This document shows, piece after piece, positions 33,285-40,962 of a stretch of DNA of 63,488 nt; within the stretch, counting starts at the first letter, position 1, and each line of letters opens with the position of its first letter. The notes under the pieces were generated by a model that ran no database searches, had not been told where the DNA came from, and saw only the letters and a program-made list of their open reading frames with translations. The position numbers were made by a program, and so were the translations under genes. The DNA is from Isosphaeraceae bacterium (GTDB lineage: Bacteria; Planctomycetota; Planctomycetia; Isosphaerales; Isosphaeraceae), in contig JANXSX010000117.1 of the NCBI GenBank assembly GCA_025356475.1, positions 1 to 63,488 of the forward strand, given 5' to 3'.

Positions 33285-34019
33285 ATGCCGATGATGAAAC
33301 GGATTTCGACGGCGATGGGCCTGCTAATCCTGAGCGCTGTTCCGGCCCTCGGCCAGGCACCGGCCCCGAGCCGAAACCAGATGACGGCCGACGCGGTCGC
33401 CACTTCGCTCGGTTCGAGCAAAGCGCTTTCGGGCTATCGCATCGAAATTGAAGTGCGTGATGGACTGGTCACCTTGACCGGTGCCGTGGCGAGCCCAGCC
33501 CAGAAGACCGAGGCTCTCGATCGTGCTCGTCAGGTTGGCGGCGTGACCGGAGTCGCTGATGGTCTGACCCTGGTCCGTGACGCTCGCGTCCGCCCAGCCC
33601 AGTACCAGCCCCAACAGGTTGCCATGCATGGCGGCCGTCGTGCCCCAATGGCGGGTGCCTATGACGGTGGAATGAACACCGGTGCACCGATCGTCAGTGA
33701 CGGCTCCTCAATGGGTGGACCCATGCCCGAGGGTCCGGCTGGAATGGCCGGTGCGACCCAAGCGACCAACCCCGGCATGCCTAATTATGCATGGCCCAGC
33801 TACGCCCCTTACCCCAACGCGTCCGCCGTTGGTTATCCCACGGCGTACCCCTGGCAGGCATGGCCGAACATCGGACCAGTTCACCCCTACCCAGAAGTTC
33901 CGCTCGACTGGCGTGCGGTAACCCTCCGGTGGGACGATGGTATCTGGTGGCTCGACTTCAAGAAGAATTACACCCGTCCGTTCTTCACTCCGTACCCCTT
34001 CGGTATCTTTGCATACTGA
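33285..34019 (+). CDS. Secreted BON-domain protein
   Basis: A 244-residue exported protein with a signal peptide (MKRISTAMGLLILSAVPALG, cleavage near residue 24). Residues about 30-100 form a BON domain (VRDGLVTLTGAVASPAQKTEALDRARQVGGVTGVADGLTL), a fold that attaches to membranes or phospholipid in OsmY and secretins. The rest is Gly/Pro/Tyr/Met-rich and flexible, with a short C-terminal block WRAVTLRWDDGIWWLDFKKNYTRPFF. Monocistronic and closed by a hairpin. Role unknown, probably envelope-associated. Confidence 0.83.
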   Translation: MPMMKRISTAMGLLILSAVPALGQAPAPSRNQMTADAVATSLGSSKALSGYRIEIEVRDGLVTLTGAVASPAQKTEALDRARQVGGVTGVADGLTLVRDARVRPAQYQPQQVAMHGGRRAPMAGAYDGGMNTGAPIVSDGSSMGGPMPEGPAGMAGATQATNPGMPNYAWPSYAPYPNASAVGYPTAYPWQAWPNIGPVHPYPEVPLDWRAVTLRWDDGIWWLDFKKNYTRPFFTPYPFGIFAY

Positions 34020-34111: not shown

Positions 34112-35455
34112 TTATTTCATGGGATCCGAGGGGTTGTTCGCGGCGGCCAGGCGGTAGTAATTGGCCAAACCCATGTTCCCCTTCCTTGTGTGGTAATCGA
34201 CGAGAAGCCGGCAAGTTGGACCGTGCCCCGGCTTCTGCTTAAGGATGAGTTGCGTCCACTCGAGCCCTTCCTTCTCGTGGCCATGTTCGATCAACCACTT
34301 CGCGGCCTCACCGCGGAGATCAGCGTCATCAGGACGGTTCACCAGGGCTTTGCGGAGATCATCGATTCGAGTCTGTTCGCCCTGGAGTCGCTCCGCGACC
34401 GCCGATTCCTCATTTGCCAGGGCTTCGTTGCCCGCCAGCTTGAGCGCACGTGAGTACTTATATCGGACCTCAGCGTCAAAGGGCAGGGCATCGACCGCGT
34501 TCTTGAGACGTTGGCTCGCGAGTTCGAATCGCCCATTTCGGAGATCGATCAGGCCAAGTTCACTGAGCGCCACCGCGTCATTAGGGTCGATTTCCAGAGC
34601 ACCTTTGAACGCGCCCGAGGCGGCATTGAGGTCTCCCCGCAAAAGGGCAACCTGGCCTGCACCAAGCAGTCCTTCAAGACTTCTTGGGTTCCGTTCCAGA
34701 TATGCAGAGAACTCAACGTCAGCCTCGTCGATCTGACGTGTTTTCAGGAGGAGGTTCGCCAACCCGATTCGAGCGGTGTCGAGACTCGGATCGCGCTGGA
34801 GCGCTGCCCGATAGTTGCGAACGAGTACGGGAGCGTCGACTCCCATCCGCTCGTCAATGTCGTTTCGGAACATGTAGGGACGAGCGTCGTCGGGAGAAGC
34901 TTCGATCCAGCGGTCGATCGCTTGCGAGGCCTCGGCTAACCGGAACGTACTGAGATAGATTCGAGCCAGCCCTTCGGCGATTTCGGCTCTCGGTTCCGAG
35001 CCGTCTTGCCACGCCACGCTTAGGATGGGCTCGGCCTGATCAAAGATCCCACCACGCGTTTGAATCACGGCTCGGAGGATCAAAACCTCGCGTTCGGGGT
35101 ATCCGCTCTCGATCGCCTTGCGGAGTAAGTCCATAGCTTCGGCGGGATGTTCGAGGAGGATCTGGAGTCGCGCTTCATAGTATTCGAGTTCGCCCCCGCG
35201 AGGCTTCTGAGCCGCCCATTCTTCGATCCGGATCTTGGCCTCGTCCAATCGCCGAGCCGCCAGAGCCTCGCGTACCAATCGCGTTCTTGTCTGGACCTCC
35301 GCCTGATTGACGACGAATACTCCAATGCCGATCGATAAAAGGACCAGTCCAAGAACAGCCAACAGAATCCCGGGTCGGCTCCATTTTCGCCTCCTGGGAT
35401 CGCTATCAATCATGCTCATAATATGGGGCTCGTTGCGCTCGTGGGTCTTGACCAT
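34112..35455 (-). CDS. Membrane-anchored TPR protein
   Basis: A 447-residue protein with a short basic cytoplasmic N-terminus, one membrane helix (about residues 29-51, ILLAVLGLVLLSIGIGVFVV) and about ten tetratricopeptide-like helical pairs facing the periplasm; good examples are ALAARRLDEAKIRIEEWAAQ and AVALSELGLIDLRNGRFELA. It is the last gene of the redox operon, immediately after the heptahaem cytochrome. A TTG at 35497 would extend it; I prefer ATG 35455 because GGGA lies at a fair distance. TPRs probably scaffold a complex around the cytochrome (inference). Confidence 0.78.
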   Translation of the reverse strand: MVKTHERNEPHIMSMIDSDPRRRKWSRPGILLAVLGLVLLSIGIGVFVVNQAEVQTRTRLVREALAARRLDEAKIRIEEWAAQKPRGGELEYYEARLQILLEHPAEAMDLLRKAIESGYPEREVLILRAVIQTRGGIFDQAEPILSVAWQDGSEPRAEIAEGLARIYLSTFRLAEASQAIDRWIEASPDDARPYMFRNDIDERMGVDAPVLVRNYRAALQRDPSLDTARIGLANLLLKTRQIDEADVEFSAYLERNPRSLEGLLGAGQVALLRGDLNAASGAFKGALEIDPNDAVALSELGLIDLRNGRFELASQRLKNAVDALPFDAEVRYKYSRALKLAGNEALANEESAVAERLQGEQTRIDDLRKALVNRPDDADLRGEAAKWLIEHGHEKEGLEWTQLILKQKPGHGPTCRLLVDYHTRKGNMGLANYYRLAAANNPSDPMK

Positions 35456-35500
35456 CGCGAGTCCCGCACGACTCTGGTTCCATGATGACCGTTCCAAGTC

Positions 35501-37387
35501 TCACCGGGAAGGTGCTGACGTGCCGGGTCTCGGCTCTGAACGGCGAATCCGGATATGGTGATCGGTAAATGTGGAAAACGGCATCACCTTATCAACTTTT
35601 GGCATGTGGCATTCGAGACAGGCCTTTGTGGGGTTGACCGGGCAAGCAGGGGCTGAGACGGGTTCGTAGCGGAGGTCCTCTGTTTTGATCGCCTCGGTCT
35701 TGTTGGCTTGATGACAGCTCAGACATCGAAGCTCGTAGAAGACTGGGCTCGTTTCCGCGTCCTTGTGCGGGTTGTGACAGCCGATGCAGTCGAGCCGTCC
35801 GCCACTCTCGGTGTAGCAGCGACTGTAGGTGAGTGTGGTCGACTGGAACCGGATAAACCGAGGGTCGGAAGGGGGGATACCACCGTTTGCCGCATGACAT
35901 TGGCCGCAGAGAGTCATCCTCTGGGCAGGGGAGGCGATCTTGGGCCTGGCAATCGCCAACTCTGGGAAGCCCGTTTTGACCGATCGAAGGTGAAGTTCCC
36001 CTGGCCCATGGCAGCGTTCGCAGCCGATCCCTTTATCCGCGACTTCAGGCCCCTTCCGCTCTTTCTCCAAGAAGAACCGGGTCGAGTGGCAGTTCAGACA
36101 ACTCCGGACGTTCTCTTCGGAGAGTGACTCACCCAGAAAGGAGTGTGGATCGGTCGGGTGCGGGTTGAATCCTCCCGTCATGCTCCACGACTTGCCGGGC
36201 GGGTAGTACGAGAGCCGCAGCGAGCAATCAACCCCCTTCTCGTCCTTGCCGAGCATCGAGAATCCGTGGTGACCTGATCCAAGGACGTAGTCGACGATCG
36301 CGCGATAGGACGTGCCGGCGACTTGAGCAGACGCCTCAATTTCGTTGGCCTTGTTGCGGACCCAACGATGGGTGACGTTGGAATCCTCGGAGTCCTTGAC
36401 CTCTCCAGACGGGATGGGAAACGATTTCAAGCCGTCCCCCCAGGTCATCGTCGCAGAATGACGACTCGATTGCTGCGACTTGAAGATGGTTCCATGACAT
36501 TCGGCACATGCTTTCGCGCCCACATACCGAGATGGCTCAAACATGAGTGGATTGGAATGCTCGAAATGCCCTGCTGCTTTGAGGGCTTCGGATGCCTCGT
36601 CGGTTAAGCCCTCTGCAAGCAGGGTTCGACTGAGCAGCCAATTTGCCTCCTGATCGGTGGACCGATCTGCGATCTTCTCGATCCAGACGCGGGCTTCGTC
36701 GGGTCGGCCCTTTTCGAGGAAGAGTCTGGCGATTAACTTGCGAACGGCGTTGGGAGTGTTCAGCTTCGAGAAGGCGGACCTACCCACCAAGAGCGCGCGA
36801 TCGAGCACGATCTCCGACCCATCAGAATTCGCGGGTTCAGACTGAATCGCGGCGAATCCCAGAACGAGTTCCGCAAGGGTTCGACCGTCGGGTATTGCGG
36901 TGAGGCGATCGACTCGGGCGAGAGATTTACTATCCGACCTGAGTTTTTTCTGGGCCTCTTTGAGCGCCTTGACCGTGTCAGGGTTCTTGGAGTCGAGTTT
37001 GGAAGCGGCCTCGATCGCTGCAGAACCGAGAGCAAGCCTTCCCTGCTGGATTAGCCCTTCACCAAGCAGGAGGAAGTCTGCCACCTCCAGGCGTTCCGAT
37101 CCTAACGCAGTTGCGAGAGCTCTCGCTTCCCCATGTCGCCCGAGTTGAGCGAGTGCTCGGGATTTGATCTTAATCGCATTTGGATCCATTTTGTCCTGGA
37201 TCAAATGCTGGTCGGCCTCACGAATTGTGTTGGCCCAGTCACCGCGGTCGTAGGATCTCACGGCCCGGTCGAGGGGCGTACCCGTCCATTGGCCTCGGAT
37301 GGCCAGGATCGCAACCAACCCAAGAATGATCCCGATCGTGAATCCGACCGAGTAGCGCCGTTGCCTGAACCATTCGGTCGCGAGCAT
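35501..37387 (-). CDS. Membrane-anchored heptahaem cytochrome c with N-terminal TPR-like region
   Basis: A 628-residue exported protein. One membrane helix near residues 14-30 anchors it; residues about 40-275 are helical TPR-like repeats; residues 290-600 hold seven CxxCH haem c sites at C294, C430, C456, C494, C534, C555 and C590. The spacing and the CLNCHS/CERCHG pair resemble cytochrome c554-like multihaem proteins. Expected role: periplasmic electron transfer. It follows the deiodinase-like gene by 62 bp and precedes the TPR gene directly. No haem-lyase or terminal oxidase gene is nearby. Planctomycetes carry other TPR-multihaem fusions, but their partners and roles are unknown to me. 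Confidence 0.9.
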   Translation of the reverse strand: MLATEWFRQRRYSVGFTIGIILGLVAILAIRGQWTGTPLDRAVRSYDRGDWANTIREADQHLIQDKMDPNAIKIKSRALAQLGRHGEARALATALGSERLEVADFLLLGEGLIQQGRLALGSAAIEAASKLDSKNPDTVKALKEAQKKLRSDSKSLARVDRLTAIPDGRTLAELVLGFAAIQSEPANSDGSEIVLDRALLVGRSAFSKLNTPNAVRKLIARLFLEKGRPDEARVWIEKIADRSTDQEANWLLSRTLLAEGLTDEASEALKAAGHFEHSNPLMFEPSRYVGAKACAECHGTIFKSQQSSRHSATMTWGDGLKSFPIPSGEVKDSEDSNVTHRWVRNKANEIEASAQVAGTSYRAIVDYVLGSGHHGFSMLGKDEKGVDCSLRLSYYPPGKSWSMTGGFNPHPTDPHSFLGESLSEENVRSCLNCHSTRFFLEKERKGPEVADKGIGCERCHGPGELHLRSVKTGFPELAIARPKIASPAQRMTLCGQCHAANGGIPPSDPRFIRFQSTTLTYSRCYTESGGRLDCIGCHNPHKDAETSPVFYELRCLSCHQANKTEAIKTEDLRYEPVSAPACPVNPTKACLECHMPKVDKVMPFSTFTDHHIRIRRSEPRPGTSAPSR

Positions 37388-37449
37388 CTCGTTACCAACC
37401 CCATTCTGATCAGAGTCCTATCGACTGACCCTGAAGTCAATCCGATCGA

Positions 37450-38826
37450 TCAGTCGGCGGGACCTGGCTCAGTATGAAGCAGGAGGATCAACGACTGTTC
37501 AAGCTCGGCAGGCTTGAATCCGAACGGACCCCTGCCCCCCTTATAGGCGATCCGACCGTGAGCGTCGATCAAGTAGAGCCGGCTTGGGAGCCCGCTGTAT
37601 GCCTTGCTGACAGCGTCATCGATTCCATCGACCAGCATGGGCATCTTCAGGCCAAGCGTTTTTTGACAGGTTTGGGCGATCTTGAGACGGTCTTGGTACT
37701 CGTGAGGTTGATCGAGTAAAACACCTGCCGGAATGTCATCGGGGATAAGGCCACCGTCGGCGGGATGAGCTTCGCGACTATAGATCACGACAAAGTTCGC
37801 GTCATTCTTATAGCGTCGAAAGAGGACATCGAGACTCGTCGCGTGGGCGCGAAACGGCCCGCACGTGAAGTTGCCGAAGATCAAGACCACAGGCTTGGAT
37901 CTGTTCAACTCCGTGAGTGAGACTTCCTCACCACCAGTCGGGCTCTTGAGCGCGAACTGAGGTGCAGGATCGTTCAATTCCGGACCTGGCCCCCACTCAC
38001 CAAGCTCGCGCTTGAGGAAGCTCGGGAGAAAGATCTCGCTCTTGAACTTCGCAGGATTTCTTTGGTTGATCATGCTCAGGTCGGGAAGTGTGCCCAACTT
38101 GGCGGCCAGATCGAATGCCTCTTGGAAATCCGCGTACGTGAGATATCCCCCGTCTTCCATGATGGAGAGGTCGAGCCGATTCTCAAGTTCTCCGGCAATG
38201 CTGGCGAGGAAGGCACCGTAATAGGGATCGATCGCAAACGCTCCCTTGAGCGCGCCATATTCAGAGCGGGAGATCCGGTAATTACTATCGCGATCGGCGG
38301 AGACGAAGGGTTCGAAGCTGAAGGCTTCGGCGGCCTTGCCCCGTTTCCGAGATTTTGAGGAAAAGTCGAAATCAACCGCAGTCAATTTGCCGTCGTGGTT
38401 TCGATCAAGTCGCTTGAAGTCGGCGAGTGAGCCCGGGCATTCCAGCGATGAGATCTCACCATTTTGGTCCTGGTCAAGGGCGGTAGAGATTCTATTCCAA
38501 TCAAAACGTGTCTTGGAAATACCCTTGCGATACCAACCAGCGCCTGGCGTTGGCCGGTTGCCGGCGAGGATCTCCGCCACCATCGCCAGCCATTCCGGAT
38601 AGTTTGGCCAGACCTTCTCGAGGAGGTCTGTCGGTTGGCCGACCGTGCTGGTGGGTTTCTTGGCGGATGCGGGCTTCGGGGGCATGAATCGAGTGGCGGG
38701 ATCGGCGGACTGATACTCAGCACCCCAACTTAATCCAGTGGCACCGATCCAGAAACCTAGCCAAACCAATGCGCGGAGGGTACGAGAGGCACGTGTCAAA
38801 GCGAGGAATTGACGGAACAACCGCAT
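37450..38826 (-). CDS. EF-hand and iodothyronine-deiodinase-like (thioredoxin-fold) protein
   Basis: A 458-residue exported protein with a signal peptide (residues 1-36). Residues about 105-240 hold EF-hand-type loops at 118-129 (DQDQNGEISSLE), 141-152 (DRNHDGKLTAVD) and a weaker one at 178-189. Residues about 280-450 are a thioredoxin-fold domain matching the deiodinase family: VVLIFGNFTCGPFRAH with Cys322 at the selenocysteine position of vertebrate enzymes, followed by VVIYSREAHPADGG. The codon is TGC, so it is a Cys homologue. First gene of an operon with a heptahaem cytochrome and a TPR protein. Probable role: Ca2+-responsive periplasmic thiol redox enzyme; dehalogenation is only a possibility. 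An alternative is a plain peroxiredoxin-like protein. Confidence 0.82.
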   Translation of the reverse strand: MRLFRQFLALTRASRTLRALVWLGFWIGATGLSWGAEYQSADPATRFMPPKPASAKKPTSTVGQPTDLLEKVWPNYPEWLAMVAEILAGNRPTPGAGWYRKGISKTRFDWNRISTALDQDQNGEISSLECPGSLADFKRLDRNHDGKLTAVDFDFSSKSRKRGKAAEAFSFEPFVSADRDSNYRISRSEYGALKGAFAIDPYYGAFLASIAGELENRLDLSIMEDGGYLTYADFQEAFDLAAKLGTLPDLSMINQRNPAKFKSEIFLPSFLKRELGEWGPGPELNDPAPQFALKSPTGGEEVSLTELNRSKPVVLIFGNFTCGPFRAHATSLDVLFRRYKNDANFVVIYSREAHPADGGLIPDDIPAGVLLDQPHEYQDRLKIAQTCQKTLGLKMPMLVDGIDDAVSKAYSGLPSRLYLIDAHGRIAYKGGRGPFGFKPAELEQSLILLLHTEPGPAD

Positions 38827-39171: not shown

Positions 39172-39678
39172 TCAGTCTTCCAGGGTGAAGTCGATCTTGT
39201 TCGACTCAGCCTTGACCGTCGCCTTGAGCCCTGAAGTCGCGGATGTTGAGTACTTGGGTGGGACCGAATTCTTGGCGTTACTTACAGCCTTGGCAACCGC
39301 AGCCTGGTCGGGCATGACAGGGGCAGCAACATGGGCCTTCTCAGCCTGCTTCTTGCTCTCTTCGTCGGCTGCGGCAAAATCGACGACAAGGTCGGTGATT
39401 GTCACGAGGTAGCCGCCCTCGAATGCACCGTCCCCCGGATTCTGGGTGGTCAACGTGTATGAACCGTTCTTGATCTCACCAGTCGCCCCACGTCCATCAG
39501 CCTTCTCGGATGTGAAGTTGATCGAACCCTTGGGAAGTGGTTGACCCTTGTAAGTCACGGTTCCCGACACGGAGTAGCGCTTGCCAAGTCCGTCATCGGA
39601 GCATCCCACGGCTACAAGAAGCCCGGTGAATGCCAGGGCGGTGGCCAATCGTGCTGAGAAAGTGCGGGTGATTTTCAT
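39172..39678 (-). CDS. Small lipoprotein of the DUF1559-associated type
   Basis: A 168-residue exported lipoprotein: basic MKITRTFSARLATA, hydrophobic GLLVAVGC with a lipobox (Cys near residue 26), then a beta-sandwich-like domain with YSVSGTVTYKGQPLPKGSINF and GATGEIKNGSYTL, resembling transthyretin-like/carboxypeptidase regulatory-like repeats. It follows the DUF1559 gene on the same strand with a 213-bp spacer that contains a hairpin. This gene pairing is common in planctomycetes and suggests the two proteins act together at the envelope (inference). No enzymatic role is evident. Confidence 0.82.
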   Translation of the reverse strand: MKITRTFSARLATALAFTGLLVAVGCSDDGLGKRYSVSGTVTYKGQPLPKGSINFTSEKADGRGATGEIKNGSYTLTTQNPGDGAFEGGYLVTITDLVVDFAAADEESKKQAEKAHVAAPVMPDQAAVAKAVSNAKNSVPPKYSTSATSGLKATVKAESNKIDFTLED

Positions 39679-39891: not shown

Positions 39892-40962
39892 TCAGTACGA
39901 GTCGGCACTGACGACTTCGCCACCGGCTCGGCTACCGAGGGCGGCATAGGTCGCACGGTTGATCGTGGACTTGAGGAATTTGACAGAGCCGTCGGCAAAC
40001 AGGAAGTTGCTGCCGCCAGGGTGCGTGCTCTTGAAGCCACGACCCGCATAACCGCCGCGAGCGTTCCAAGGAGCCCCTGAACCGAATCCGGCGAAAGGAG
40101 CTCCAGTGAACCAGTTGATCGGAACGGTGACACCTGCACCTGAGCCGGTGGCGTCCCAAATGTTGTTGTTGGCGTCCTGCTTGGGCAGGCCTTCGCCGAT
40201 AATCAGCGTGTTGCTGGTACCGTCTGTGACACCAGCCATGTTGGTGACGCCCATGGTTCGGTAGTCGGCAAATCCACGCATCCCGCCGGTTTCACCACCA
40301 TAGTTGATGACGCCGGTCGTCCCCCAGAATCCGTTGAAACCGATTCGGGGCAGGGCGGGGTTGGTCAGAGGCAGAGCACTTTCCCAAGGGTTGACGCCCG
40401 AGAGCGGGAGAATGGCGTAGTTATCGCCAAAGCTCATGTTGTAATTGGTGACCGGAACTTCCTGGACTGTCGAACCGATGCGGGTCGGACAATACATCGA
40501 GTACGTGCCGGTGGGGTTGTTGAACGGCACATAACCACCGGCTGTGCTGCCGTCGGACGGGCAAAGGTAGACCGACATCTGGGTATACCAAGCCGTCGCG
40601 ATCGACTGTCCCCCGCCATTGGCGAGCGAGTAGTTGACCGCATTGTAAATGTTGGTCTGCTCGATATTGGGCAGAATCAGGATGCGCCATGAGACGTTGC
40701 TGTTGGACCATGCGCCCCAGCCAGGCTGACCGGGAGCGAGAGACATCGCCGCCGGGGGAAAGATGCCGACTTGGTCGTGATAGGTGTGGATCGCCAGACC
40801 CATCTGCTTAAGGTTGTTGACGCACTGAGTACGACGGGCAGCCTCGCGGGCCGCTTGAACGGCGGGCAGCAACAATGCAATGAGCACTGCAATGATGGCG
40901 ATGACCACCAGCAACTCAATGAGTGTGAAGCCACGCTTCCGAACTGGGAGTCGAGAAGTCAT
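39892..40962 (-). CDS. DUF1559 domain-containing prepilin-like protein
   Basis: A 356-residue protein. The class III prepilin leader is near perfect: KRGFTLIELLVVIAIIAVL (residues 8-26), then IALLLPAVQAAREAARR and a conserved CVNNLKQMGLAIHTYHD. The C-terminal signature is HPGGSNFLFADGSVKFLK, and the end GGEVVSADSY matches the ends of other local copies. Secreted through a pilin-type machinery, probably surface-exposed. First gene of a pair with the small lipoprotein. The 1.4-kb region upstream lacks genes. Function of the family is unknown. Confidence 0.93.
   Translation of the reverse strand: MTSRLPVRKRGFTLIELLVVIAIIAVLIALLLPAVQAAREAARRTQCVNNLKQMGLAIHTYHDQVGIFPPAAMSLAPGQPGWGAWSNSNVSWRILILPNIEQTNIYNAVNYSLANGGGQSIATAWYTQMSVYLCPSDGSTAGGYVPFNNPTGTYSMYCPTRIGSTVQEVPVTNYNMSFGDNYAILPLSGVNPWESALPLTNPALPRIGFNGFWGTTGVINYGGETGGMRGFADYRTMGVTNMAGVTDGTSNTLIIGEGLPKQDANNNIWDATGSGAGVTVPINWFTGAPFAGFGSGAPWNARGGYAGRGFKSTHPGGSNFLFADGSVKFLKSTINRATYAALGSRAGGEVVSADSY

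Follow-up and report, generated by a model that had tools for sequence, protein, structure and literature searches.

A divergent deiodinase-like gene ahead of a conserved heptaheme cytochrome-TPR pair in an Isosphaeraceae bacterium, and a CMD/AhpD-like partner for its family

In the loci sampled here, the main partner of a family of bacterial deiodinase-like proteins is an exported double-domain CMD/AhpD-like protein, and in one Isosphaeraceae genome a divergent member of this family is found with a cytochrome pair instead. We hold with moderate confidence that this locus, situated in a 63,488-nucleotide stretch of DNA (the window), is a variant of a DUF1559-LIP-DUF362-B-C module in which the deiodinase-like gene (A) occupies the DUF362 slot ahead of genes for a heptaheme cytochrome (B) and a TPR protein (C), and that the A family forms an AhpC/AhpD-like pair with the CMD-type protein. 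Bacterial deiodinase-like proteins have been known, in Cys as well as Sec form, since the Sargasso Sea selenoproteome of 2005 (PMC1088965), and a 2026 review places them among the families with largely unknown function (PMC13188914). The CMD/AhpD-like protein is the first specific, testable partner that we could find for them; literature surveys list both selenoprotein families, and a functional link between deiodinase-like and CMD/AhpD-like proteins was not found in that literature. The useful result is this partner, together with the apparent exchange of DUF362 for A in a cytochrome module that is conserved in other respects. The partner assignment bears on the origin of vertebrate thyroid-hormone enzymes from peroxiredoxin-like ancestors, and the window provides a natural case in which a member of the deiodinase-like family has another candidate electron carrier beside it.

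Results

Three intact open reading frames, A, B and C, follow one another head to tail on the window's minus strand and are transcribed from position 38826 to 34112 (Table 1). Their features are beyond chance. An initial annotation of this DNA had proposed the head-to-tail order, which proved correct; the strand is stated here for the first time. The gap between A and B is 62 bp, and B and C are separated by 3 bp if C starts at its TTG and by about 45 to 80 bp if it starts at one of the in-frame ATGs further in. Just upstream of A, on the same strand, are the genes for a small lipoprotein (LIP) and a DUF1559 protein. A gene convergent with A-B-C (33285-34019) codes for a protein that has a BON domain and a tail rich in Pro and Tyr. 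Scanning the window for Rfam families and tRNAs returned nothing, and no DNA match was found in the plasmid collection.

Table 1 Features of the locus and their positions in the window.
Feature	Position	Strand	Remarks
A: exported EF-hand + deiodinase-like (thioredoxin-fold) protein	37450..38826	-	458 aa, Cys322 at Sec position, divergent NF038285 member
EF-type loops of A: residues 118-129, 141-152, 178-189	38260..38475	-	sequence, alignment
Deiodinase/peroxiredoxin-like domain of A: residues 284-452	37471..37977	-	profile, PDB and fold matches
Active-site Cys322 codon of A	37861-37863	-	
B: membrane-anchored TPR + heptaheme c-type cytochrome	35501..37387	-	628 aa
Seven-heme region of B	35606..36508	-	CxxCH residues 294, 430, 456, 494, 534, 555, 590
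C: membrane-anchored TPR protein, conserved tandem partner of B	34112..35497	-	461 aa
LIP: small lipoprotein, recurrent in B-C neighborhood	39172..39678	-	168 aa
DUF1559 (SBP_bac_10) prepilin-like, recurrent near A family and near B-C unit	39892..40962	-	

A scores well above the curated cut-offs of NCBIfam NF038285 (deiodinase_rel, "deiodinase family protein"; 351.1 bits against 250) and Pfam PF00837 (T4_deiodinase; 91.6 bits against 27), and its best solved relatives by sequence are mouse DIO3 and DIO2. The same grouping emerged from structure prediction (mean pLDDT 83.6), where a fold search with the model returned DIO2 and DIO3 (Z 19.5 and 18.8) above the peroxiredoxins, the next entries, including AhpE, lying at about 15 to 15.5. 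Like DIO2 and DIO3 (9h48, 4tr3), A has the fold at residues 278-452, with a Thr-Cys/Sec-x-Pro-Phe motif followed by Tyr...Glu-x-His-Pro. The NF038285 active-site motifs are present as T321-C322-G323-P324 and as Y349, R351, H354 and P355, with Cys322 at the Sec position inside FGNFTCGPF and EAHPADG at residues 352-358, confirming the deiodinase signature that had been read from the sequence. The peroxiredoxin motif PxxxT/SxxC is absent, the residues leading to Cys322 being VVLIFGNFTC with no Pro at C-7.

The N-terminus of A carries a signal-type hydrophobic stretch, pointing to export. EF-type loops, also claimed initially, are readable behind it, three in number; in the third, Tyr183 stands at a position that is Gly in 98% of relatives, and the Pfam EF-hand scores lie just below the cut-offs. 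In its combination of an EF-hand N-terminus with a deiodinase-like domain A resembles other bacterial deiodinase-like (seleno)proteins, whereas DIO2 and DIO3 have no such loops preceding the domain.

An alignment of 61 family members was used to place the window protein. Cys322, Glu352, His354, Cys387 and the RGP motif are all retained in it (Cys387 is present in 55 of the 61 and absent in six). Trp359 and Asn364, present in all 60 other members, are lost in window A alone, which also has the longest branch. These two losses and the branch length suggest that window A may no longer do the job of its family. Relative to the proton relay of vertebrate deiodinases, formed in Dio2 numbering by Glu160 and His162 (PMC11592359), Glu352 and His354 of A occupy the aligned positions. 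The second relay residue, His182, aligns instead with Pro374, invariant in 61 of 61 members, Gly359 of window A stands at the position of Dio2 Trp167, and an encoded Cys322 replaces the catalytic Sec.

B consists of an N-terminal hydrophobic anchor, TPR repeats and exactly seven CxxCH sites. The sequence, profile scans and an alignment of 19 homologs, in which all seven sites are invariant, bear out the seven hemes behind a TPR-like region noted at the outset. C matches TPR family PF14559 and has one N-terminal hydrophobic stretch read from sequence, in agreement with the membrane TPR protein that had been predicted. By curated family score B does not classify as an NrfA-type nitrite reductase, reaching about 20 bits to NrfA models (cut-offs about 600) and having seven CxxCH sites; its PDB sequence matches to NrfA-type and other multiheme cytochromes are weak and confined to the heme region. 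A fold search with the model of B returned mainly TPR proteins, the TPR domain filling the list and leaving it uninformative for the heme part.

In 45 Isosphaeraceae genomes, relatives of B and C occur in tandem on one strand at ten loci including the window, and divergent or nearby in about six further loci. B-C is thus a genuine conserved tandem unit in Isosphaeraceae. B is multi-copy in these genomes, with most copies having other neighbors. It is one of several paralogs in the source genome, and another of these lies beside a CRTAC1-type FG-GAP/UnbV gene, as is known for planctomycete TPR-multiheme cytochromes near CRTAC1 (FG-GAP/UnbV); in contrast to those, window B has A ahead of it and C as its tandem partner.

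Deiodinase-like genes are common in these bacteria, occurring in 36 of the 45 Isosphaeraceae genomes, and 153 of 398 genomes of class Planctomycetia have a match at E 1e-30. Direct adjacency of A and B was seen only in the window, one of 105 A loci with fetched neighborhoods, a count from related species that does not represent independent events; a further 33 A loci had no B nearby. At one other locus (L147, G316:C1:7242000-7260000) B and C are no more than 5 kb from A but not in tandem, and A, DUF1559, LIP, C and B are gathered within about 8 kb in an order and orientation unlike the window. The A-B-C set is therefore a one-genome arrangement among the sampled loci. The initial annotation had proposed that the three genes could form a shared system, a claim that fails, since genes of the deiodinase-like family are widespread at loci that lack B. 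What stands of it is the B-C pair and an occasional link between A and a multiheme TPR cytochrome: in two other planctomycetes (loci L038, L278) a different five-heme membrane TPR cytochrome, no close relative of B, follows A at about 36-40 bp. Membrane five-heme TPR cytochromes of 970-1080 aa adjoin or lie near deiodinase-like genes in L038 (5360-8344), L278, L234 and L283. As a general partner of A the L038-type protein was rejected, since it directly adjoins A in only these two sampled loci and is itself widespread (found in 235 of 396 genomes of the class, usually as a single match).

The gene most often accompanying the A family is of another kind. In 64 of the 105 loci, a double-domain CMD-type gene is found no more than 2.5 kb from A on the strand of A, compared with a single locus for the opposite strand; these counts, too, come from related species. 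Moreover, 24 of the 105 were flagged automatically as having A and a CMD part in one reading frame, a flag that can include a frame only touching the next gene. Five fused reading frames of 826-857 aa (L137, L189, L193, L205, L246) show NF038285 matches followed by CMD-type/peroxidase-related ones, an assignment based on scans and one motif check in which some of the latter matches fall below their own family cut-offs. Paired A and CMD-like genes were also present in L138, L141, L142, L144, L158 and L164. Window A has no adjoining or fused CMD-like gene; among sampled NF038285 members it is the most divergent and has the cytochrome pair in place of this partner.

In-frame UGA at the active site is possible in both A-family and CMD-like genes. 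Sec was called from active-site codons only, as calls based on any stop in a BLAST piece over-count (e.g. L196). For loci with both sites readable, the A/CMD states were C/C in 47, U/U in 5, C/U in 2 and U/C in 0, a matching of Sec use with a Fisher p of 7e-6 that is uncorrected for relatedness. Downstream (3') of the UGA, A genes of class Planctomycetia (L156-L165, L199, L229) share a short hairpin of the GGUCCC-AGU-UUGGGACC type, in which a paired change converts GGUCCC/GGGACC to GAUCCC/GGGAUC (G-C to A-U). Its folding energy is mildly better than that of shuffled sequence (mean z -1.1). The hairpin is likely a bacterial SECIS element, a reading based on the shared pairing with paired changes and not on folding energy. 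Both A copies of the source genome carry Cys. Missing Sec machinery was considered as the reason and is not supported, as a strong tRNA-Sec match is present in it (G000:C53:69896-69990).

The surroundings of the B-C unit revealed a recurrent Isosphaeraceae module consisting of a DUF1559 prepilin, LIP, DUF362, B and C. Its order, known from few DUF362-slot loci, is DUF1559-LIP-DUF362-B-C in G303 (L118), DUF362-B-C-DUF1559-LIP in G309 (L340), DUF1559-LIP-DUF362-C in G325 (L343) and LIP-DUF362-C in G315 (L344). The locus in the window appears to be a variant of this module, with the order DUF1559-LIP-A-B-C: DUF362 is absent before B-C and A is there instead. The DUF362 relative of the source genome is located on another contig (C131) and is 61% identical to that of G303. 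Given the position of A and this relative elsewhere, the simplest explanation would be a replacement of DUF362 by A in the window. The DUF362 proteins of L118, L340, L343 and L344 have a twin-arginine-type N-terminus, read by eye.

Discussion

In mycobacteria, the AhpC/AhpD peroxidase pair joins a peroxiredoxin-type fold to a CMD-fold protein with a CxxC-H center. The A family resembles this pair in that its peroxiredoxin-type fold is likewise partnered with a CMD-fold protein having a CxxC-H center, and differs from it in that the A-CMD pair is deiodinase-like, apparently exported, often fused and, in some species, contains Sec in both partners. By this analogy, the likeliest function of the A family would be that of an exported AhpC/AhpD-like thiol/selenol reductase or peroxidase rather than a deiodinase, a reading that draws on the fold, the CMD/AhpD partnership, the fusions and the matched use of Sec. 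Cys/Sec322 of A would attack an oxidized substrate, most likely a peroxide or another small oxidant, Cys387 may resolve the oxidized Cys/Sec322, and the CxYC or CxYU center of the CMD-like partner would then re-reduce A, with the whole reaction taking place outside the cytoplasm. A literature search found no biochemistry of any A-family member. In the window, the cytochrome module B-C probably moves electrons outside the cytoplasm, and B could be a substitute partner of A. We propose, tentatively and as a serious possibility, that A and CMD constitute an undescribed extracytoplasmic thiol/selenol peroxidase or reductase, often fused, of which the window shows a rare branch with the CMD protein swapped for the heptaheme module.

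Two further accounts of the locus, each of which we consider unlikely, concern the relationship between A and its neighbors. According to one, close to the electron-transfer path suggested initially, A has given up its CMD-like partner in favor of electron exchange with B, C being a scaffold. The position of A, 62 bp ahead of B on the same strand and with no CMD-like gene beside it, would fit such a switch, as would its unusual divergence, the gathering of A, DUF1559, LIP, C and B within about 8 kb in G316 (L147) and the different five-heme TPR cytochrome that follows A at about 36-40 bp in L038 and L278, which keeps the idea alive without proving it. However, the arrangement comes from one genome, with no other A-B operon in the 105 and 33 further A loci, B is multi-copy and mostly has other neighbors, and where a cytochrome adjoins another A gene it is no close relative of B. 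The second account is that recombination at the abundant DUF1559-lipoprotein pairs moved A to B-C, where it drifts under weaker constraint with no functional link. This is consistent with the frequency of DUF1559 genes next to members of the A family as well as next to the B-C unit, with the long branch and the loss of otherwise invariant residues and of one EF-hand Gly in window A, and with the second, more typical A copy in the same genome (C175). Yet the reading frame is intact, Cys322, Glu352, His354, Cys387 and the RGP motif are retained, and the spacing and strand of A and B fit co-transcription.

Finally, it is very improbable that A is a true reductive dehalogenase or deiodinase fed by the cytochrome: although no solved structures are closer to it in sequence and fold than the deiodinases and the Glu-x-His of the proton relay (PMC11592359) is retained, Cys stands in place of Sec, the Dio2 His182 and Trp167 positions are an invariant Pro374 and, in the window, Gly359, and the partner profile of the family is AhpD-like. 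A halogenated substrate had been suggested initially as one possibility; nothing found pointed to iodine or halogen chemistry, and the neighbors that were scanned included no dehalogenation genes.

The source genome offers two related loci. Its second, more typical A copy (G000:C175, L036:5553-9978) is of the Cys type and is followed, about 120 bp downstream, by a gene for a TPR protein of 1029 aa whose N-terminus is of the signal type. Its CMD-like gene, on C15 (L249:7459-10487), has a product belonging to a second CMD type and adjoins neither A gene; it lies behind a DUF1559 gene and a small lipoprotein gene of its own, the same leader that is found at CMD-deiodinase loci elsewhere.
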